Shown piece by piece: positions 5,339 through 50,164 of a DNA stretch of 52,533 bases (its first letter is position 1; each line of letters starts with the position of its first letter). The stretch is taken from IMG/VR virus record IMGVR_UViG_3300021602_000010, positions 1-52,533 of that record. The stretch is one strand, 5' to 3'. A model generated the notes under the pieces. That model was not told the origin of the DNA, searched no databases, and saw only the letters and a program-made list of their open reading frames with translations. The translations under genes and the position numbers were made by a program. The stretch comes from a virus.

Positions 5339-6793
5339 TCAATAAGGTCCTTGTGTTTGCCATCTGATAGTACACATTTTACATTGTGTAAAGAATTCTT
5401 CAAATTCTGGGAATGTTTCTAAGAAATTAGTGCCGCGGCGTGCATCATACTCAACTATGTATTCCGCAAACTGACCTCTTAAATGATTAAGTTTAGTTGA
5501 ATTTTTACCTAAAGAAATCATCTCATCTCTGATTACATAGAATAATCTTTCAAATCTGTTTACTTCATAATCAAAGAATCCTTTTCCACATAACGGGGGC
5601 CAATTCATTTGATGTATGTTTTTAAACATGTGTGTTACTGAATTTTCTACGTAGGGTAAAAAATCAGCAGAAGCTACCCATGGTGCTAAAAACTCAGGCC
5701 AACGTACATAAGGTACATCCAATGACACTGGGTTTTTGCGAATAGGTTGAATAGTATACTGATGTTTCATTTGAATGATATCATCCATTAACAATTTAAA
5801 ACTAGGTATGCTTAAAATATTATATGCGGCCATAACTGTAAGAAAACTATCAGGAATTTCCGAAAGAACACGATGACAATTATTCAACCATCTGTCATAG
5901 TTTAAGCCAAATCTAATATATTCTGCTTGTTTTCCGTGTGCTTCATTACTAGTATAGAGTTTAAAAGATTTAACCGCTTTTTTATCCTGAATAATTTGCA
6001 TCTTTTCAATGAACTTATTCATTAAGTCTAGTGGTACATCTAAATTAGAATTGATATTAAATTCCATTTGCGGTTGAGGATTTTCAATTAGGTAATCCAA
6101 TACCCTAAATACTTGTTTACTCATTAATGGTTCACCGCCGGTAATTCGGAACACATGCAAATCTTTAACTGCATCAGGCCACCATTTCCAAAAAGCCTCA
6201 ATATATGGATTGTGTTTTGTTATGGGCATAGGCATAGTATCAGTTTTAATCAAATAGTCTAAACTATGCAATGTCATATCTTGTAACTGATATGGTCCAT
6301 GCTGTTCTATCTCTTGTCTCCATGATGAAGAATACGACGGAGAACAGTATGCACATTTAAAATTACAAGTAGTATCAAATGATACTTCTAAATAAGTTGG
6401 ATTAACATCCGCATCCCATGGTCTTTTCTTTATATCATCTAGATAGGGTCTGGCCCAGTCCTCAGCACTTTTTGTAATTCTATCACTAAAAATAATACTT
6501 TCATTAGACTTGGTTAGTGCATCTTCTGCTCTCCAGCAATAATTACATTCTTGTGGTCTCTTACCTTCTAACATCATTTTTCGTTGCTGTTTTTTAAAAT
6601 CAGTATTATGCAATGCACTCGGAGATATTACAAGCTCCTCAATTGGAATTTTATGAGGTGATGGGTGATGACAACTATGTGTTGTTCCTGCACCCAAATG
6701 CATAGATACTTGATTCCATTTTGCTAAACAAAAACTAGGACTCACTGTGTCGAGTGAGTTTTTTGTATGTTGAAATTCATTATAATTATCCAT
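5339..6793 (-). CDS. Radical SAM protein with N-terminal twitch-like domain (copy 1)
   Basis: 484 residues from the ATG at 6793, which overlaps the upstream stop as TAATG; another in-frame start two codons earlier is possible. Radical SAM motif CNFKCAYC (C143, C147, C150), followed by the GGE-type strand F-R-I-T-G-G-E-P. The N-terminal twitch-like region has SFCLAKW, HSCH and ECNYCW (C22, C41, C83, C86). It aligns along its length with the next gene: SPSFC, LHNTD, KMMLEGK, SSSW and LYTSNE are shared. This indicates tandem duplication followed by strong divergence, so the two enzymes may act on different substrates or as a pair. Expected to be cytoplasmic and oxygen-sensitive. Confidence 0.85.
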   Translation of the reverse strand: MDNYNEFQHTKNSLDTVSPSFCLAKWNQVSMHLGAGTTHSCHHPSPHKIPIEELVISPSALHNTDFKKQQRKMMLEGKRPQECNYCWRAEDALTKSNESIIFSDRITKSAEDWARPYLDDIKKRPWDADVNPTYLEVSFDTTCNFKCAYCSPSYSSSWRQEIEQHGPYQLQDMTLHSLDYLIKTDTMPMPITKHNPYIEAFWKWWPDAVKDLHVFRITGGEPLMSKQVFRVLDYLIENPQPQMEFNINSNLDVPLDLMNKFIEKMQIIQDKKAVKSFKLYTSNEAHGKQAEYIRFGLNYDRWLNNCHRVLSEIPDSFLTVMAAYNILSIPSFKLLMDDIIQMKHQYTIQPIRKNPVSLDVPYVRWPEFLAPWVASADFLPYVENSVTHMFKNIHQMNWPPLCGKGFFDYEVNRFERLFYVIRDEMISLGKNSTKLNHLRGQFAEYIVEYDARRGTNFLETFPEFEEFFTQCKMCTIRWQTQGPY

Positions 6794-34501: not shown

Positions 34502-34951
34502 TTATTGAATGGAGGCTGTGTTATTGAAATTGTTGAAGAAAATACTCACTGACTGAGCATTATTGAAGGGCGACACTGCCAGTTCTACCTCAAGTAGAAT
34601 GCCGTTTTCCCGTGGATATACATTGATGGAATTTACGATAAGTCGGGTATCAAGGTTTGCTACGCGGCGCAATTCATTCTCAAGTTGAAACTGAACATCA
34701 GCAGTATTAGGTTCAAATACAAACGTCCAAAGAGTGGTGCCGTATGCCGGATTACCCACCTTTTGCCCCTGTGGTATATTTAGCGCATTGAGGAAATCCT
34801 GGATTACTAGTTTCTCATCTACCAGAGTGGTCTTTTTGCCATAGATTATAGGCGCTACAACACTACCAGTACCACCAGCGGGACCTGGTTGAAGATAAGT
34901 TGAACGCGGTTTGTTGGCGTTGATTGTAGAAAATCCAATAAATGTAGGCAT
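34502..34951 (-). CDS. 25: Baseplate wedge protein gp25
   Basis: 149 residues from the ATG at 34951 (MPTFIGFSTINANKPRS). An in-frame start at 34993 would add 14 basic residues and overlap the upstream gene, and is less likely because gp25 homologues begin with the PTFIGFS segment. Hallmarks: LNIPQGQKVGNPAYGTTLW, QLENELRRVANLDTR and ENGILLEVELAVSPFNNAQ. This is the gp25/lysozyme-like fold shared with type VI TssE, in which a conserved Glu-Pro-Arg-like core joins wedge to sheath. It is not an active lysozyme. A CATAAATA octamer lies four bases before the ATG. Confidence 0.9.
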   Translation of the reverse strand: MPTFIGFSTINANKPRSTYLQPGPAGGTGSVVAPIIYGKKTTLVDEKLVIQDFLNALNIPQGQKVGNPAYGTTLWTFVFEPNTADVQFQLENELRRVANLDTRLIVNSINVYPRENGILLEVELAVSPFNNAQSVSIFFNNFNNTASIQ

Positions 34952-34955
34952 ATGG

Positions 34956-34963
34956 TATTTATG
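34956..34963 (-). promoter_or_regulatory. Late-promoter-like octamer CATAAATA abutting the gp25 start
   Basis: Minus-strand CATAAATA (7 of 8 to TATAAATA) overlaps the stop of the upstream gene and ends four bases before the ATG. ATAAAT (34962-34957) can pair with ATTTAT in the first codons (34943-34938), a weak 6-bp version of the start-site hairpin seen at the endonuclease genes. Confidence 0.4.
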
Positions 34964-42523: not shown

Positions 42524-42552
42524 TTGTTTTCTGCCATTGAATATGTTATAAT
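42524..42552 (+). promoter_or_regulatory. Host-type (sigma-70-like) promoter for gp55
   Basis: TTGTTT (42524-42529), a 17-base spacer and TATAAT (42547-42552) with an extended TGT just before it. Transcription would start near 42559, giving a leader of about 25 bases that contains AAGGAAA seven bases before the ATG at 42584. This is a perfect -10 and gives gp55 expression before late promoters become active. Confidence 0.7.
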
Positions 42553-42583
42553 TACAGAGCATAACAATAAGATAAGGAAAACT

Positions 42584-43489
42584 ATGTCACTACTACCAGC
42601 CCCGAGGAAGCCAGTCAATTATCTGAACAATAGAGACATTCTGAAAGAAATACATACCAGTAAAAATACCTACTGTCATTTCACGGACCCGGAAGTCCAT
42701 CGGTACGATATGATTGTGGATATGCCCCAGGCGCCACTTGATGAAAGTTTGGCGTATGCGTTTCGTCCCGAAAGTATTCAGTTGGCCAAAGAAAATCGGG
42801 CAATCCGTCTGAGCCAGGAAGCCGGAGTCAAAGATTCGGTCAAGGCTGCTGATATCCTAACCACTGACTTAGTATTTAGGGTGATGACTTGGACCCATGT
42901 CCCAGTGGCACCAAAACAACCAAGGAAAACGGTAAAAAAGAAAACGGCCAAGGACATATTTGAGTTCGAGGAAGCCGATCCTGATGAGAAGTTTGCTGAT
43001 CTGGAAGACAACGTGACCAAAGCAGAAGTAGATGACATGGTTCATGTAAAGGTAAACTTCCCACCGTTTCAACACTATAAAATTGACCCAAATAACACAT
43101 TCTTCTGCGTTGGTAAGTCTCACTGGCAGGGTGATTTAGAAAGTGGTGTGTTCAATAAAGACCATGGGCAAGCCACTAACAAACTGGCGCGCATGTATAT
43201 TATGATGTGTGAAAAGTATGCCATGAAGTATAACTGGCGCGGATATACTTATCGTGACGAGATGCAAAACTCAGCTATCCTTCAACTCACCTATGTTGGT
43301 CTCCGATTCAACGAAGCTAAATCCGCAAACCCGTTTGCGTTCTACACCGCAGTCATCACCAACTCATTCTGTCGTGTTCTTAACACTGAAAAACGAAATC
43401 AAAATATTCGGGACGACATACTAGAAATCAACGGCCTCAACCCAAGTTGGTCTCGGTCATCAATTAGTTCAACTCACTTTGACGAGTAA
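42584..43489 (+). CDS. 55: Late-transcription sigma factor gp55 with large N-terminal insertion
   Basis: 301 residues from the ATG at 42584, preceded by AAGGAAA; an in-frame TTG at 42524 lies inside the promoter. The start (KPVNYLNNRDILKEI, 9-23) corresponds to the YNYVNNKELL start of T4 gp55. The sigma-like core is at about 198-275 (LARMYIMMCEKYAMKYNWRG, YRDEMQNSAILQ, NPFAFYTAVITNSFCRVLN). Gp55 binds RNA polymerase and recognises the TATAAATA late promoter. T4 gp55 is 185 residues; here about 150 extra residues (about 30-185) with a Lys-rich stretch and a very acidic stretch separate the two conserved parts. The T4 C-terminal clamp-binding motif (LDFLYE type) is not evident; this protein ends SSISSTHFDE. 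The 3' end overlaps the convergent HNH gene by 26 bases. Confidence 0.85.
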   Translation: MSLLPAPRKPVNYLNNRDILKEIHTSKNTYCHFTDPEVHRYDMIVDMPQAPLDESLAYAFRPESIQLAKENRAIRLSQEAGVKDSVKAADILTTDLVFRVMTWTHVPVAPKQPRKTVKKKTAKDIFEFEEADPDEKFADLEDNVTKAEVDDMVHVKVNFPPFQHYKIDPNNTFFCVGKSHWQGDLESGVFNKDHGQATNKLARMYIMMCEKYAMKYNWRGYTYRDEMQNSAILQLTYVGLRFNEAKSANPFAFYTAVITNSFCRVLNTEKRNQNIRDDILEINGLNPSWSRSSISSTHFDE

Positions 43490-44060
43490 TATATTTCCAG
43501 CCGCGCGTAGTTTTATACTTGCCATTGATTAGTCTACTTGCGCTTCCCTGGTCAACATCCTGGGTGGTGACGAACTCATATTGCGTCATTTGAACCGTTA
43601 CTCCGGTTTCTATGTTGTGAAAAGTATGAATAGTAGGATCATACTTTGAGTTTTTTATGCCTTTGTTTCTACCAGTAAATGGATTTACATATCCCGGTTT
43701 AGAGATTCTATCCTTGGTATGACTTGAACCATCCGCTCGCTTTTGCCACGGATGTGTACCTTTCTCTAATCTATGTAGGTGATTCAATTTAGCGATTTCG
43801 GAAATTTGCTCTGTGGACCATTTCATTTTTGCTGCGATGCGGAGACATGCTGTCCAATCACCCTGTTTATGGTGAACATCGTAGTGATCTTGTATTGAAA
43901 TGGCTATAAGATTTTCAGGATTATTGTTATGGCTATTACCATCCTTGTGGTGGATTTCATATTTTCGTCCCGAATCTTCTCTTGGGATTGGCCCATAATA
44001 TTGCTCGTATAGTTTACGATAGTTAACTTTAGTGCGTCTTTGTTTATTATAAATAGTCAT
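43464..44060 (-). CDS. HNH homing endonuclease, antisense between gp55 and gp47
   Basis: 198 residues from the ATG at 44060, chosen for its AAGGAG ribosome site eight bases upstream; a longer frame to 44234 would run into the gp47 start. The HNH core is YEIHHKDGNSHNNNPENLIA then HYDVHH (about 30-65), with His-His, Asn and final His in the expected places. Downstream are NUMOD-type DNA-binding segments (GYVNPFTGRNKGIKNS; then ATG-like tail G-V-T-V-Q-M-T-Q-Y-E-F and RGWKYIT). It is a free-standing mobile gene that points against gp55 and gp47. The late octamer at 44120-44127 and a start-site inverted repeat (44049-44126) control it. Confidence 0.85.
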   Translation of the reverse strand: MTIYNKQRRTKVNYRKLYEQYYGPIPREDSGRKYEIHHKDGNSHNNNPENLIAISIQDHYDVHHKQGDWTACLRIAAKMKWSTEQISEIAKLNHLHRLEKGTHPWQKRADGSSHTKDRISKPGYVNPFTGRNKGIKNSKYDPTIHTFHNIETGVTVQMTQYEFVTTQDVDQGSASRLINGKYKTTRGWKYITRQSELN

Positions 44061-44126: not shown

Positions 44127-44127
44127 C
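44120..44127 (-). promoter_or_regulatory. Late-promoter-like octamer GATAAATA for the HNH gene
   Basis: Minus-strand GATAAATA, 59 bases before the HNH ATG. A transcript starting about six bases downstream (near 44114) would lack the first arm of the start-site stem. Confidence 0.55.
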
Positions 44128-44178: not shown

Positions 44179-45195
44179 ATGTCTAATCTATTCAAAAAAG
44201 CAGCGGTCCTAACGGATCTACATCTTGGTCTCAAGAGTAACAGTTTGGTTCACAACGAGGATTGCGTGAACTTCGTCACATGGTTTGTGGCTAAGGCCAA
44301 AGAAGAAAAGTGTGATACCGTTATTGTATGTGGAGACTGGCACAACCATCGTGCCAGCATCAACGTGCTGAGTTTACACTACTCCATGAAATGTCTGGAG
44401 ATGCTGAATGCCAACTTCTCTCAGGTATTTTTCATCACAGGTAACCACGATCTTTACTATCGTGAGAAACGGGACATTCATTCGGTTGCTTGGGCAGGAT
44501 ACCTACCCAATGTAACTATTGTCAATGACCCGTTTACTGAAGGCAACGTCACTCTTTGCCCATGGATGGTCGGCGAAGATCATGCCGCAATCAAGAAGAT
44601 CAAGTCCACATACACCTTTGGGCATTTTGAACTGCCCTACTTCCTGATGAATGCCCAGATTGAAATGCCCGATCATGGTCTGATCAGCCTGGATGATTTC
44701 GGGTCTACGGGCACCGTATTCAGTGGACATTTTCACAAACGACAGGCCAAGAAGAACATCTGGTACATCGGCAATGCTTTTCCGCATAACTATGCTGACG
44801 CCGGTGATGATGCCCGCGGTATGATGATACTGGCCTGGGGACAAACTCCCGAGTTCTATTCATGGCCTGGTCAACCCAAGTATCGTGTGCATAAACTGAG
44901 CGACATTCTGGAGAAGACCAAAGAGTTATTGCTGCCTGATTCGCATGTTCGTGTTCATCTAGACATTGACATTTCCTACGAGGAAGCGAACTTCATTCGG
45001 GAAACACTTATCCCTGATTATAATCTTCGGGAGATGGCACTGATTCCTATGCGAGTGGAGCAACAGGCCACTGGTGCTGAATCCGGAGAGATAAAGTTTG
45101 AATCGGTAGATCAAATAGTTTTGGATCAGATTAACTCTATTGAATCAAAGACTTACGACAAGAAAATTCTACTGGAAATCTACAACACTATATGA
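44179..45195 (+). CDS. 47: Recombination endonuclease subunit gp47 (SbcD/Mre11-like)
   Basis: 338 residues with the full metallophosphoesterase set: D13-x-H15 (LTDLHLG), G-D53-W-H (VVCGDWHNH), G-N89-H90-D91 (ITGNHDLYYR), H149 (FGHFELPY) and G-H184-F-H186 (FSGHFHKRQ). This is the nuclease subunit of the gp46/47 complex, which resects DNA ends for recombination-dependent replication and degrades host DNA in T4. The stop overlaps the gp46 ATG by four bases (45192-45195), as expected for a fixed-ratio complex. The HNH gene lies between this gene and gp55 on the other strand. Confidence 0.93.
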   Translation: MSNLFKKAAVLTDLHLGLKSNSLVHNEDCVNFVTWFVAKAKEEKCDTVIVCGDWHNHRASINVLSLHYSMKCLEMLNANFSQVFFITGNHDLYYREKRDIHSVAWAGYLPNVTIVNDPFTEGNVTLCPWMVGEDHAAIKKIKSTYTFGHFELPYFLMNAQIEMPDHGLISLDDFGSTGTVFSGHFHKRQAKKNIWYIGNAFPHNYADAGDDARGMMILAWGQTPEFYSWPGQPKYRVHKLSDILEKTKELLLPDSHVRVHLDIDISYEEANFIRETLIPDYNLREMALIPMRVEQQATGAESGEIKFESVDQIVLDQINSIESKTYDKKILLEIYNTI

Positions 45196-47270
45196 TATTG
45201 CTCAAGGATATTACAATACGCAACTTTTTAAGCGTGGGGGCCTGCACTCAAGCAGTCAACTTTGACCGGACTGACCTGACACTGATTCTCGGAGAGAATC
45301 TTGATCTTGGTGGTGATGGCGCTCGTAACGGCACCGGAAAGACCTCGTTGATCCAAGGTCTTTCTTATGCCTTGTTCGGTGTGCCTATCAATAGCATCCG
45401 AAAAGACAACCTGGTCAATCGCACCAACGGCAAGAACATGCTGGTCACCCTGACTTTCAGTGTTGATGGAGTGGAGTACAAGATTGAGCGAGGACGCAAG
45501 CCTAATCTGTTGAAGTTCTACGTGAACAACACGCTACAGAAGCAACAGGATGATGCCCAAGGAGAGAACAAAGAAACTCAAGCAGCCATTGAGCGAGTAA
45601 TCAACATGTCAGCAGACATGTTCAAGCACATCGTGGCACTGAATACCTACTCTGAACCGTTTCTTGCTCTGAAGAATAGTGATCAACGAGCAATCATTGA
45701 GCAACTACTTGGCATTACCATTCTGAGCGAGAAGGCCGAGAATGTAAAGGAACTGCTTACCACCAGTAAAGATGCCATACGAACCGAAGAGTTCCGTATT
45801 AAGGCAGTTGAAGAGGCTAACAAGCGTATCCTTGAACAGATTGAAGGGCTGAAACGCCGTCAACGACTATGGACAACTAAGAAAGATTCAGACCTTGCCG
45901 CCTATGTGGAATCGTATGATACTCTGTCCAAAATAGATATCGTGGCAGAACTACAAGCGCACAAAGACCTCGTGGTCTACAACAAGAACAAAGAAGTAAA
46001 CCAGAACTACATGTCGTTGACTGCCCGCTCTACCGCATGGTTTGATAAGAATAAACGAGAAGGCGTGGAGTTGCAGAAGGCGTACGACAAAAAGAACTCC
46101 ATTGATATCGTCAAGGAACTACAAAAGCACCGACAGGTCGCCGAGTACAACCAACGAGTCAAGGATAAGGCAACACAAGACGCTGATATCAAGCGGGCAA
46201 CCGGTGATTGTGTCAGGCATGATAAGGAAATCAAAAAACTTGAAGCCGAAATCGCTCAACTTCACGAACACAAGTGTTATGCCTGTGGGCAGGAGTTACA
46301 TGACGAGCAACACACCGTTGTCCTTGATGCGAAAGAAGAGGCGTTAGTTCTGGCAATAAGCAGCCACAACACTTCTCTTGACCTCCTCATTCATCTAAGA
46401 GAAAATAAGATTTCTCTTGGTAAGATGCCATCAACCCTATACAAGACAGAAGAAGAAGCGTTCAAACACTCCAGCGAACTGGAAAGCATCCGTCATAAGA
46501 TCACAGACAAAGAAAACGAAGCTGATCCGTATGCCGAGCAAGCCAATGAACTGCTCAATAGTGTGACCACCTTATCCAAGCCACCAGTTACCGTTTATGA
46601 CACCGAAGCGGAAGCGGTGACGCATAGTTCAACTATGGCCAATCTACTGACACAAATGGAAAGCAAAAGCGAAGAGGTTGATCCGTATGAGGAACAAATC
46701 GTTGATATGGAGCAGAAGGCTCTACAGGTAACGAACTTTGACATGATCAACTCACTGACAAAGACCATGGATCATCAGAAGTTCCTGTTGGAACTGCTCA
46801 CCAGCAAGGATTCGTTTGTTCGTAAGAAGATCATTGATCAAAATCTGGCATTTTTGAATGCCAGGTTGACTCACTATCTTGATAAGATCGGTCTGCCACA
46901 TCAGGTTGTCTTCCAAAACGACCTGAACGTGGAGATTACTGAGTTAGGGCGTGAACTTGACTTTGATAACCTGTCCCGTGGTGAGCGCAACAGGCTGATT
47001 CTTGGTTTGTCGTTTGCTTTCCGTGATGTTTGGGAAAACCTATACAAGCCGGTCAATACCCTGTTCATTGACGAGTTGATTGACTCCGGTCTTGATACCA
47101 TGGGCGTAGAAAACGCCATTGCCATTCTCAAGGACATGAGCCGTCGTCGTCAGAAATCTATTTGGCTTGTCTCTCACAGAGAAGAACTTGCAGGGCGAGT
47201 ACCGAGTGTTCTGAAGGTGGTTAAGACTGGGGGATTCACTGAATATTCCACAGCGACAGACACGGAGTAG
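45192..47270 (+). CDS. 46: Recombination endonuclease ATPase subunit gp46 (SbcC/Rad50-like)
   Basis: 692 residues. Walker A is near residues 34-52 with an inserted loop (GENLDLGGDGARNGTGKTSL). A long coiled coil (about 180-560) is interrupted by a zinc hook, KCYACGQ with C362 and C365, through which two molecules join. The ABC signature LSRGERN is near 592 and Walker B LFIDELID near 625. All parts needed for ATP-driven DNA tethering with gp47 are present. Its stop is directly followed by an in-frame extension region of the GIY-YIG gene (TTG at 47271) and by the hairpin at 47297-47331. Confidence 0.93.
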   Translation: MILLKDITIRNFLSVGACTQAVNFDRTDLTLILGENLDLGGDGARNGTGKTSLIQGLSYALFGVPINSIRKDNLVNRTNGKNMLVTLTFSVDGVEYKIERGRKPNLLKFYVNNTLQKQQDDAQGENKETQAAIERVINMSADMFKHIVALNTYSEPFLALKNSDQRAIIEQLLGITILSEKAENVKELLTTSKDAIRTEEFRIKAVEEANKRILEQIEGLKRRQRLWTTKKDSDLAAYVESYDTLSKIDIVAELQAHKDLVVYNKNKEVNQNYMSLTARSTAWFDKNKREGVELQKAYDKKNSIDIVKELQKHRQVAEYNQRVKDKATQDADIKRATGDCVRHDKEIKKLEAEIAQLHEHKCYACGQELHDEQHTVVLDAKEEALVLAISSHNTSLDLLIHLRENKISLGKMPSTLYKTEEEAFKHSSELESIRHKITDKENEADPYAEQANELLNSVTTLSKPPVTVYDTEAEAVTHSSTMANLLTQMESKSEEVDPYEEQIVDMEQKALQVTNFDMINSLTKTMDHQKFLLELLTSKDSFVRKKIIDQNLAFLNARLTHYLDKIGLPHQVVFQNDLNVEITELGRELDFDNLSRGERNRLILGLSFAFRDVWENLYKPVNTLFIDELIDSGLDTMGVENAIAILKDMSRRRQKSIWLVSHREELAGRVPSVLKVVKTGGFTEYSTATDTE

Positions 47271-47296
47271 TTGAAATATGGATTCACTTGTTATGG

Positions 47297-47304
47297 TATA
47301 AATA
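47297..47304 (+). promoter_or_regulatory. Late promoter TATAAATA at the GIY-YIG gene
   Basis: Perfect TATAAATA, ending exactly five bases before the ATG at 47310. With T4 late geometry the first transcribed base would be the A of that ATG, giving a leaderless message. The octamer also forms part of the left arm of the hairpin at 47297-47331. Confidence 0.65.
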
Positions 47305-47331
47305 GTTATATGAATAACTATTATGTTTATA
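47297..47331 (+). promoter_or_regulatory. Start-codon hairpin of the GIY-YIG endonuclease gene
   Basis: AATAGTTAT (47301-47309) and ATAACTATT (47314-47322) form a perfect 9-bp stem whose four-base loop is ATGA, containing the start codon. TATA (47297-47300) can extend it by pairing with TATA (47328-47331) across a five-base bulge. Read-through RNA from gp46 would hide the start; RNA from the late octamer would lack the left arm. Confidence 0.65.
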
Positions 47332-47984
47332 TGTATACTAGATCCGTTGATTCTCCTACCGCTAAAGCAGGGACACCATATTATATCGGAAAGGGCAGAG
47401 GGAGGAGGCGGTTTGAAAAGCACTCTGTTACCATCCCAAATGATGAGCATAATGTAATAGTGTTTGAAAACTTACTTGAGATGGGAGCATTTATCATTGA
47501 GAGAACTCTCATCAGGTGGTATGGACGTAAGGACTTAACTTACACGGACAGACCACCTGGTATTCTACGAAATATGACTGATGGTGGTGACGGTGGGAGC
47601 GGCAGAAAAGATTCCGACGATACGAAACAGCGTCGAGGTAAGTCAAATACTGGAAAACGACGAACGATTGAGTCAAAGAATAAAATATCGGCGGCAGTTA
47701 AGGCGGCACGGATAAGATTGGGTAACTGGTGGATTGATAAAAAGCACTCGGATGACACGAAGCAGATAATGTCTGCCAAGAAGAAAGGCAAGTCTTACGA
47801 GGAAATTTTTGGACCGCGCGCGGCAGAAATGCGAGAGAGAAGAAGGATAGAATCATCTGGGATACCCAAGGGGCCGCAATGTCAGGTCATATGCCCGCAT
47901 TGCGGCAAGGTGGGCGGGACCGGCATTATGAAACGCTGGCACGGCGATAGGTGTAAGTACAATACTTCTACGGAGATGGACTAA
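47310..47984 (+). CDS. GIY-YIG homing endonuclease with NUMOD3 and zinc finger
   Basis: 224 residues from the ATG at 47310. The same frame is open back to a TTG at 47271, but the domain begins directly at YYVYMYTRS and the ATG fits GIY-YIG lengths. The catalytic module has Y-V-Y-M-Y and P-Y-Y-I-G-K-G (about 4-27), a downstream Arg (GRRRF) and a Glu (F-I-I-E-R). Two Lys/Ser/Thr-rich NUMOD3-like modules ([33 protein letters not shown]) follow. The C-terminus [11 protein letters not shown] ... HGDRC is a Cx2C-HxxxC zinc finger seen in phage homing enzymes. It sits directly after gp46 in the same direction, a typical insertion place for free-standing homing genes. Confidence 0.85.
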
Positions 47985-47986
47985 TG

Positions 47987-47994
47987 GCTAAATA
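47987..47994 (+). promoter_or_regulatory. Weak late-like octamer GCTAAATA before the small nuclease gene
   Basis: GCTAAATA (6 of 8) ends six bases before the ATG at 48001, the same tight spacing as at 47310. No Shine-Dalgarno is seen near the ATG. May be chance in an A+T-rich stretch. Confidence 0.3.
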
Positions 47995-48000
47995 TCTCAC

Positions 48001-48444
48001 ATGGATACAGGTCATTGGGAGTTCCCACACGTTTTTGAAATTGACGACTGGTTCGGTTTTCTTTACCGAATTACAGAGATAAGCACCGGCATGGAATACG
48101 TCGGCAAGAAGCAACTGCATCAGCATCTAAGAAAAACAGTCAAGGGCAGAAAAAATAAGAAGAAGGTGATCAAGGAGTCTGATTGGAAAACCTATATGGG
48201 TTCTTCAGTCAGACTCAACACCTCGATTGCCACTAATGGCAAAGACAACTATCGCTTTGAGATAATTTCCCTGCATAAGACACGCGCATCGCTCGTTTAT
48301 GCGGAAGTAAAACTTCAAATTATGGAAGATGTTCTACGAACAAAACTACCTAACGGCACACGGAAAAGTTACAACGGCCTTATCTCAGGCATCAAGTTTC
48401 TTCCTCCAGAGGAAACGGCCGAAGAGGCAAAAATGAAAAGATAG
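48001..48444 (+). CDS. Small GIY-YIG-like nuclease of T4-like phages
   Basis: 147 residues. FGFLYRITEISTGMEYVGKK (about 18-37) is a G-x-x-Y ... Y-V-G variant of the GIY-YIG core. Next come a basic helix (QHLRKTVKGRKNKKK), DWKTYMGSSVRLN and, near 103, VYAEVKLQ with a candidate catalytic Glu. This compact form without NUMOD tails is common in T4-like phages and may be a resident nuclease rather than a mobile one. The in-frame stop TAA at 47989-47991 fixes 48001 as the first usable ATG. Role unknown (DNA repair, end processing or exclusion of rivals). Confidence 0.7.
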   Translation: MDTGHWEFPHVFEIDDWFGFLYRITEISTGMEYVGKKQLHQHLRKTVKGRKNKKKVIKESDWKTYMGSSVRLNTSIATNGKDNYRFEIISLHKTRASLVYAEVKLQIMEDVLRTKLPNGTRKSYNGLISGIKFLPPEETAEEAKMKR

Positions 48445-48481
48445 TTACCCAAATACAGTATAATTTTCGTACGGAACGTGT

Positions 48482-48496
48482 TATACTTGCTAAATA
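48482..48496 (+). promoter_or_regulatory. Promoter-like cluster before the candidate RNA
   Basis: TATACT (48482-48487, one base from a consensus -10 but with no good -35) and GCTAAATA (48489-48496, late-like) lie side by side. Either would start transcription between about 48494 and 48502, just before the folded region. Confidence 0.35.
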
Positions 48497-49112
48497 AACA
48501 GACACCAGGTCAAATCAAATTCCCCGTCACTAGCCTGACACCAAACACTGGCACAAAGCCTTAGCCTAATTCGTCTAGTCGGGACGCCCGACTCTCCTTG
48601 AGGTTGTACAGATTGTGCTGTGCCGTCAGATACTGGAGTATAGCCTTGGTATTGCGCTAATAATACCAGGGGAATACCGACAGGGCTCTCACCATGGTAG
48701 AAATGTGAACCCTGAATGAGTCTGTGCCTACTTTGTCGTGATGGTACAGAACATGCGTTGCTGGGAGGTATGGTGAAGTTTAAGCCATATTGTCCCAACT
48801 ACAGATCCATAACAACTTTACAGAGCAACCGGTAGCAGATAGTAGTAGACGCCTAATTATCTGGGATAGAGACAACAGAGGGGATAGGGTGAAACTTTCC
48901 ATTTGGTAGTGCTAATTTAGCACTACCATGGCTCCAAGGTGAAGTGGATATCCGATAAGCAAATAGAGAAAAGAAAAGAGTAGAATAAAAAAGAATTAGA
49001 GTGATACCGAGCGAAGCGAAGGGATCAGATGTGCGTAGCACATCTCTAAAGAGAGCAAAATATAAATGACAAATAATGGAATGGAATACCAAAAGAAAAG
49101 ACACCGAAGTGT
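48497..49112 (+). ncRNA. Candidate large structured non-coding RNA
   Basis: No frame on either strand looks like a gene, yet the plus strand is full of nested complementary arms. A multibranch domain is closed by ATTCCCC (48519-48525) with GGGGAAT (48669-48675). Inside are CTGAC/GTCAG plus GGCACA/TGTGCC (48535-48629), AGTCGGG/CCCGACT with a 3-base loop (48577-48593), ATAC/GTAT (48630-48641) and a 7-bp stem (48647-48668). Further stems are CAGGG/CCCTG with TCAC/GTGA (48681-48714), an 8-bp stem (48721-48750), TGGGA+TATGG/CCATA+TCCCA (48762-48797), CAGATA/TATCTG (48836-48863) and a 10-bp stem (48904-48928). Beyond 48930 the sequence is A/G-rich with an 8-bp hairpin (49027-49045). Size and complexity recall the ornate large phage RNAs (GOLLD and ROOL type), but I cannot show homology. 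The 3' end is not defined. Confidence 0.55.
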
Positions 49113-49114
49113 CT
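49090..49114 (-). terminator. UUCG-loop terminator for the gp26-like gene
   Basis: On the minus strand AGACAC-TTCG-GTGTCT (49114-49099), closed by a C-G pair around a UUCG tetraloop, is followed by TTTCTTTT. This is the stable terminator type common in T4. The stem begins within the stop codon of the -1 reading frame (TAG 49113-49115). It would stop leftward transcription before it enters the candidate RNA in antisense. Confidence 0.75.
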
Positions 49115-49343
49115 AAAAGAATGGTAGTTTGCTTTCTTTCGTGGTCTTGAGGTTATCAGATATGATCTGATTTATTTGGTTTCGTTCCTCCATAGACATG
49201 TTCAACACATCCTCATAGGATACTCCACCCCGCATGTACCAAGAGCAAGTAAGAGCATTTTTCTTAATTGCAGTACACTCATCTTCCATATCATCTAATA
49301 GCTTCTGTACACCTTCGGGGTCAAGGTGCAGAAGCCTTACCCG
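49113..49343 (-). CDS. -1 frame extension of the gp26-like protein (76 residues)
   Basis: After the slippery site the -1 frame stays open for 76 codons to TAG at 49113-49115, giving a 350-residue fusion. The segment reads CGG-GTA-AGG ... and contains LLHLDPEGVQKLLDDMEDE, NALTCSWYMRGGVSYEDV and a C-terminal T-K-E-S-K-L-P-F-F. The W-Y-M-R-G-G and M-S-x-E-E-R segments look conserved and protein-like, and I recall similar ends near gp26-type genes of other T4-like phages. No ribosome site precedes the only internal ATG (49289), so frameshifting is the simplest route to its expression. Confidence 0.75.
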   Translation of the reverse strand, partial: RVRLLHLDPEGVQKLLDDMEDECTAIKKNALTCSWYMRGGVSYEDVLNMSMEERNQINQIISDNLKTTKESKLPFF

Positions 49344-49349
49344 AAAAAA
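49301..49349 (-). promoter_or_regulatory. Programmed -1 frameshift signal
   Basis: Slippery heptamer T-TTT-TTC (49349-49343, in the zero frame GAT-TTT-TTC), a 7-base spacer (GGGTAAG, 49342-49336, holding the zero-frame stop), then a 13-bp stem: GCTTCTG+CACCTT (49335-49323), loop GACCCCG, AAGGTG (49315-49310), a TA bulge and CAGAAGC (49307-49301). Slip site, spacing and stem all match known -1 signals. Confidence 0.85.
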
Positions 49350-50164
49350 TCAGCGGCGTTTATTGAGAACGGCTGTGAGTATTCGTGACCGCAACTGATA
49401 CATTTCACCGGAAGTGGTTTTACCTCAGACTTAGTTTTAAGACTGGTATTGTGTGATCTGATTGCTTCAAACATATTCTTGTCACAGTTCTTCAGGAAGT
49501 CAAGAATGAAGTCCTTCTGATCTACGAATGAACTGGGAGTTTTGATATATTCAATGGTCTTAGATAGCAGATTCATTGTGACATCAGTGATAGTTTTCAG
49601 AGCCTCACGCTGCTTAGTTGTCTTTTCAGTGAGATTTTCCAGCGTGTCAATTGCTGCAAACATCTTCTGTAGTTCAAACTGACCAAGACCCACTTCAGTC
49701 ATTTCCTTGTAGGTCAGCGGACGTAGTTTAATCAGCAGATCATTCACAGCAAGTTCAGTGTCATAATCACCCGATTTGATTGAGGTTAATAGTCCTACAA
49801 GATTCACACCATATGTAGATGCTTCTTGGCAAGCCGGGCATGTCGTTTCAATTTCCATGTCATTGCCACCTGAGGCTGACTTGATTGCCAACAGCACAGT
49901 GTCAAGATCAACGCTGGATAGTCTCCACGGATCCTTGATATTCGGTACACAACTTGTGATAATTTCAACGATGGCACTGCCGTTGAATAACGCATCAGGC
50001 GTATTTACTGTGATTTCGTCAATGGCAGTCATCGGGAAGACCGGTAGTTCCCCTGCCTCTGGCACATCAATGACTCCTTCGGGATAATTTTTATACCCGC
50101 TTGGTAGTTTGATATAAATTGATGGGCGGCGAAAATATTGTCTTAGCGGATTGTTTTCAATCAT
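49337..50164 (-). CDS. 26: gp26-like baseplate hub / tail assembly chaperone protein (zero frame)
   Basis: 275 residues. The start (NPLRQYFRRPSIYIKLPSG, then YPEGVIDVPEAGELPVFPMT and TPDALFNG) is a conserved pattern I associate with the T4 gp26-type baseplate family in large phages. Two Cys pairs, C109-P-A-C112 and C255-I-S-C258, could build one zinc site. T4 gp26 (208 residues) takes part in hub assembly. The gene ends ...AADFFG at a slippery site, and the -1 frame gives a 350-residue product, the classical arrangement of tail assembly chaperones that act on the tape measure protein. The tape-measure-like gene starts 98 bases away on the other strand. Preceded by AAGGAAC and an ACTAAATA octamer. 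Confidence 0.75.
   Translation of the reverse strand: MIENNPLRQYFRRPSIYIKLPSGYKNYPEGVIDVPEAGELPVFPMTAIDEITVNTPDALFNGSAIVEIITSCVPNIKDPWRLSSVDLDTVLLAIKSASGGNDMEIETTCPACQEASTYGVNLVGLLTSIKSGDYDTELAVNDLLIKLRPLTYKEMTEVGLGQFELQKMFAAIDTLENLTEKTTKQREALKTITDVTMNLLSKTIEYIKTPSSFVDQKDFILDFLKNCDKNMFEAIRSHNTSLKTKSEVKPLPVKCISCGHEYSQPFSINAADFFG

Follow-up and report, generated by a model that had tools for sequence, protein, structure and literature searches.

The late genes of bacteriophage T4 are the textbook system of late expression, in which a promoter is followed by a leader and a Shine–Dalgarno sequence. Hairpin-controlled late expression has been described for I-TevI, I-TevII, I-TevIII and segB of T4 and for mobE of Aeh1 (PMC2988022, PMC3014915). 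In this form of control, the promoter lies beside the start of a homing endonuclease gene. The late RNA begins downstream of the 5′ arm of the hairpin and is therefore unable to form it; the hairpin hides the Shine–Dalgarno sequence and the late RNA keeps its leader. The T4 late promoter box itself spans positions −13 to −6 (PMC1524935, PMC2988020). Phage transcripts are often leaderless according to one paper (PMC5312081); for T4-like phages, no description of leaderless late mRNAs turned up in a search of the open-access literature, a result that argues only weakly for novelty.

The locus described here lies in a T4-like virus record, the whole 52,533-nucleotide stretch of which was analysed and is referred to as the window. 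It encodes a gp55 late sigma factor, gp46, gp47 and baseplate genes, and megablast returned no close isolates of it. Four structural-type genes have NATAAATA boxes 17–20 nt upstream, most of them with a Shine–Dalgarno-like leader; given these boxes and gp55, T4-like late promoters are to be expected. An HNH-like gene between gp55 and gp47, on the opposite strand (43464–44060, minus), has the late box GATAAATA at 44127–44120 and an AAGGAG leader. The features of the gp46 region and of the gp55 gene are as follows.

42524–43489, plus strand: gp55-like late sigma factor (phrog_12791, E = 2.8e-69)
45192–47270, plus strand: gp46-like recombination nuclease subunit, stop codon TAG at 47268–47270
47240–47956, plus strand: about 717 nt inserted in frame within the last gp46 codons, from alignment with the empty site of contig L013
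47279–47289, plus strand: TGGATTCACTT, a copy of gp46 empty-site sequence (11/11 with contig L015, 9/9 with L013)
47310–47984, plus strand: 224-aa homing-endonuclease-like gene of the GIY-YIG/NUMOD3 type; the GIY-YIG signature was recognized by eye
47957–47984, plus strand: old gp46 3′ end, YNTSTEMD*, which now closes the endonuclease frame

The protein encoded at 47310–47984 matches NUMOD3 (PF07460) and the homing endonuclease families phrog_314 and phrog_655. Relatives in three contigs (L009, L011 and L012) start MNNYYVYM at the same place, which supports the start codon at 47310. The empty site is provided by L013, in which gp46 is 96% identical and the endonuclease gene is missing; the insert supplies a new gp46 ending, TEYSTATDTE*. 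Judged from this alignment, the endonuclease gene is a recent in-frame insertion at the 3′ end of gp46. A search for a group I intron around the endonuclease frame gave no Rfam match at E values up to 5 in 46800–49400. Fusion of gp46 to the endonuclease by readthrough of TAG 47268, which is in frame with the endonuclease, found no support; TAG is also the stop codon of two further frames in the window.

The anatomy of the endonuclease gene start can be read directly from the DNA.

47278–47301, plus strand: short open frame MDSLVMV*, 7 codons, which stops at the left arm and might allow translational coupling
47297–47304, plus strand: T4-type late promoter box TATAAATA, for which the T4 spacing of −13 to −6 predicts +1 at 47310
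47301–47309, plus strand: hairpin left arm AATAGTTAT, sharing the final four bases of the promoter box
47310–47313, plus strand: loop ATGA with the start codon, where the late RNA is predicted to begin
47314–47322, plus strand: hairpin right arm ATAACTATT, codons for NNYY

The perfect 9-bp stem, 47301–47309 with 47314–47322, presenting the start codon in an ATGA loop, is exactly as a preliminary description of this DNA had reported, and the overlap of the late box with the left arm, also claimed there, is evident from the coordinates. With the T4 box at −13 to −6, +1 falls on the A of the ATG at 47310, and the arms therefore flank the predicted start site, the 5′ arm upstream and the 3′ arm downstream. 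There is no Shine–Dalgarno sequence ahead of 47310, and the AUG is unpaired in the loop. Exact copies of TATAAATA are found in the window at chance level (3 versus 3.2 expected); the box is meaningful because of its position and because of the NATAAATA boxes ahead of structural genes. Folded alone, the 35-nt stretch with the hairpin has an energy of −6.3 kcal/mol (z = −2.1). The window has perfect stems of at least 9 bp with loops of 3–8 nt at four places, where 1.1 would be expected; shuffling the local 76 nt produces one in 1.3% of cases; and, if the box and the coding right arm are taken as given, the remaining 5 nt fit by chance in about 0.4% of cases. The stem is thus unusual, yet not overwhelmingly so given some 50 genes. 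Another perfect stem in the window, of 11 bp (TGGTAGTGCTA/TAGCACTACCA) with a 3-nt loop, lies at 48904–48928, where there is no clear gene. The 21-nt start TATAAATAGTTATATGAACAA is copied exactly elsewhere once, at 5658–5678 on the minus strand of the 6.8-kb contig L113, at a gene judged HNH-like by eye; this copy is without the 9-bp stem.

The short spacing between box and ATG recurs close to gp46 in relatives. The distance from ATAAATA to ATG was measured in 12 related contigs, the window included, for the 256 boxes with a gene start within 40 nt. The boxes fall into two groups with few between: 78 of the 256, a count that takes in orthologs and frames called mechanically, lie 4–5 nt from the ATG, and 129 lie at 15–27 nt. 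Shine–Dalgarno pairing of −4 kcal/mol or better precedes the start in just one of the 78 near cases (1%) against 56% of the far group. Control heptamers do not give the two-group pattern, a small peak at 5 nt being seen for the variant ATAAGTA only. The pattern NATAARTA-N5-ATG occurs 94 times in 14 contigs against 29 for the reversed pattern. T4 has no box at 4–5 nt among 30 (Fisher p = 5e-5), S-PM2 has one box at 5 nt and PA5oct has two. We interpret the boxes of the near group as promoters joined directly to the start codon, and from this spacing the lineage probably has a class of leaderless late genes to which the GIY-YIG gene belongs.

The clearest case in the class is a gp25-like baseplate gene, which provides the second start of this type in the window.

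34949–34963, minus strand: CATAAATA-CCAT-ATG, leaderless-type start of the gp25-like baseplate gene at 34502–34951

The arrangement of a box 4 or 5 nt before the ATG is found at this gene in six contigs (the window, G013, G004, G005, G006 and G007), and the spacer letters vary; in G001, G003 and G008 the box is farther upstream and is accompanied by a Shine–Dalgarno-like AGGA or AAGGA. From these comparisons, gp25-like orthologs swap between putatively leaderless and Shine–Dalgarno layouts. That CATAAATACCATATG at the gp25-like gene is a stop-codon coincidence was considered and set aside, since the orthologs show a conserved layout. In the cultured phage PA5oct (MK797984, 144972–145854), EST35_0222 has TATAAATA-N5-ATG; its annotation describes a structural protein, carries an ESI-MS/MS note and places the start at that ATG (144985). 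A gene family beginning M(T/P/S)S(P)..K, mostly located just 3′ of gp46 and possibly, by eye, encoding a Holliday-junction-resolvase-like protein, starts with NATAAGTA-N5-ATG, with variable N5 and without a Shine–Dalgarno sequence (contigs L018, L020–L024, L027, L028, L030, L032, L041, L042, L054, L056, L063, L065, L068 and L077); NATAAGTA is perhaps a variant late box.

In the explanation that we favour, a late promoter dependent on gp55 would here be fused with the start codon, such that the 5′ end of the late mRNA is the AUG itself, and this leaderless mRNA would be translated through recognition of its 5′-terminal AUG. In RNA reading through from gp46, the AUG would be internal, without a Shine–Dalgarno sequence, and able to sit in the hairpin. 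The left arm derives from promoter DNA and would be missing from the late RNA, so that the endonuclease would remain off until late transcription begins. The anatomy, the spacing across the class, the missing Shine–Dalgarno sequence and the recent insertion are visible in the sequence; the actual 5′ end, translation from it and the effect of the hairpin are what we infer. That the late RNA starts leaderless at the AUG, as the preliminary description had predicted from the promoter spacing, is very probable, now that boxes at 4–5 nt without a Shine–Dalgarno sequence appear as a class in the lineage, with 5′ ends predicted. The explanation as a whole, with fused promoter, leaderless mRNA and hairpin-assisted silence before late transcription, we consider somewhat better than even.

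The contribution of the hairpin is less secure. In RNA running from 47240–47250 to past about 47345, its probability is about 0.1–0.3 and longer-range pairing wins; it rises to about 0.5–0.8 when the stretch before about 47286 is missing from the RNA or is occupied. Conservation of the hairpin was not found among relatives of the window endonuclease gene, many of which have late boxes with longer leaders. Over all 78 near starts there is no excess folding (mean z −0.16), and yet 9-bp stems occur at two of them against about 0.1 expected: that of the window gene and that of an HNH-type homing endonuclease gene in G008 (L219). The next longest, of 7 bp, is at an HNH-type gene in G005 (L211), so that the three longest stems of the 78 are all at endonuclease genes, a pattern of three cases noticed post hoc. 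The G008 and G005 stems each have −9.1 kcal/mol and are gone in RNA starting at the AUG. A different GIY-YIG gene following gp46 in the near-identical contigs L035, L037 and L038 has an 11-bp stem with the late box GATAAATA in the loop and a Shine–Dalgarno sequence at the base, an arrangement with a related form in L007. The on/off hairpin of the preliminary description is accordingly plausible from the T4 and Aeh1 precedents and from these stronger versions in relatives; against it stand the weakness of the stem, the competing fold, the lack of a Shine–Dalgarno sequence to be hidden and the location of the AUG in the loop. That the hairpin helps to silence read-through RNA has, in our estimate, slightly less than an even chance; the missing Shine–Dalgarno sequence may alone keep that RNA silent.

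The principal rival accepts the leaderless promoter and regards the hairpin as a by-product of an AT-rich promoter that happens to be complementary to the MNNYY codons, silence coming from the missing Shine–Dalgarno sequence. The conserved protein start fixes the right arm, the class shows no excess folding, and a chance of about 1% per site is not rare over many starts. The concentration of the longest stems at endonuclease genes and the T4 and Aeh1 precedents count against a by-product, leaving it a serious contender of about one chance in three. A more radical rival denies the promoter, taking ATAAATA 4–5 nt before the ATG as a translation signal or as the product of stop-codon packing. The motif does include TAA, and in nine of the 78 near boxes this TAA is the stop of an upstream frame 60 or more codons long; the other 69 are not such stops, other TAA-containing heptamers show no comparable peak, the same ATAAATA is the late box found before Shine–Dalgarno leaders, and the gp25-like orthologs change layouts. 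We consider stop-codon packing ruled out as the source of the 4–5 nt peak by the control heptamers, the 69 non-stops and the layout swaps, and this rival as a whole highly unlikely.

Two further possibilities concern what else the upstream DNA might do. Ribosomes ending the 47278–47301 frame or gp46 might open the hairpin and restart at 47310, in which case the gene would also be made from read-through RNA. GGAG at 47264–47267, 10 nt ahead of the ATG at 47278, and the stop of the short frame at the left arm would suit such coupling; it would, however, counteract keeping the endonuclease late, and we think it improbable. Added autorepression, which is compatible with the fused-promoter explanation, would have the endonuclease bind the target-like 47279–47289 beside the promoter; I-TevI is a precedent, acting as its own repressor at an operator that resembles its homing site and overlaps its late promoter (PMC2988022). 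TGGATTCACTT, just upstream of the promoter, matches the empty site in relatives and could be such an operator or else a relic of insertion. Its match score was reached by 37 of 5000 shuffles, a significance of just about 1%; the cleavage sites of free-standing enzymes are often distant from the gene that encodes the enzyme (PMC2988022), and the target here is putative, so that we hold autorepression to be unlikely.

The proposal extends beyond this gene. We would give an even chance to the wider reading of these sequences, in which leaderless mRNAs, made at promoters fused to the start codon, serve for the translation of many late genes throughout a T4-like lineage (some 30% of the late boxes that have a gene nearby), and mobile endonucleases add promoter-split hairpins so that only the late RNA is translated. 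Against the T4 background, a related lineage appears to omit the leader in roughly a third of its box-linked late genes while keeping leaders elsewhere, and single orthologs switch; nature has thereby set up a comparison in which leaderless translation in infected cells can be tested. The lineage would also provide a pared-down version of the T4 principle by which the late RNA of a gene is the only one from which it is translated, and the class is a caution to gene-finders that start codons may come without a Shine–Dalgarno sequence.

The locus can be compared with several known systems. It shares with T4 and Aeh1 hairpin control the homing endonuclease, the promoter beside the start and a 5′ arm that precedes the late start site, but here there is no Shine–Dalgarno sequence to hide, the AUG lies in the loop, and the predicted late RNA begins at the AUG. 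With T4 late promoters (PMC2988020, PMC1524935) it has in common the box TATAAATA at −13 to −6, gp55 and boxes at structural genes; the 4–5 nt spacing, found at none of the 30 T4 boxes, accounts for about 30% in this lineage. Leaderless mRNAs such as that of lambda cI (PMC9031893) resemble it in their 5′-end AUG, predicted here, and lack of a Shine–Dalgarno sequence, whereas in this lineage the arrangement is linked to a phage late sigma factor and to many genes, with 5′ ends that are predicted. Finally, like free-standing homing endonuclease insertions in T4-like phages, the GIY-YIG gene lies beside a recombination gene and has an empty site in a close relative; it differs from them in that the insert is in frame and replaces the gp46 ending, while the former ending now serves as the 3′ end of the endonuclease gene.
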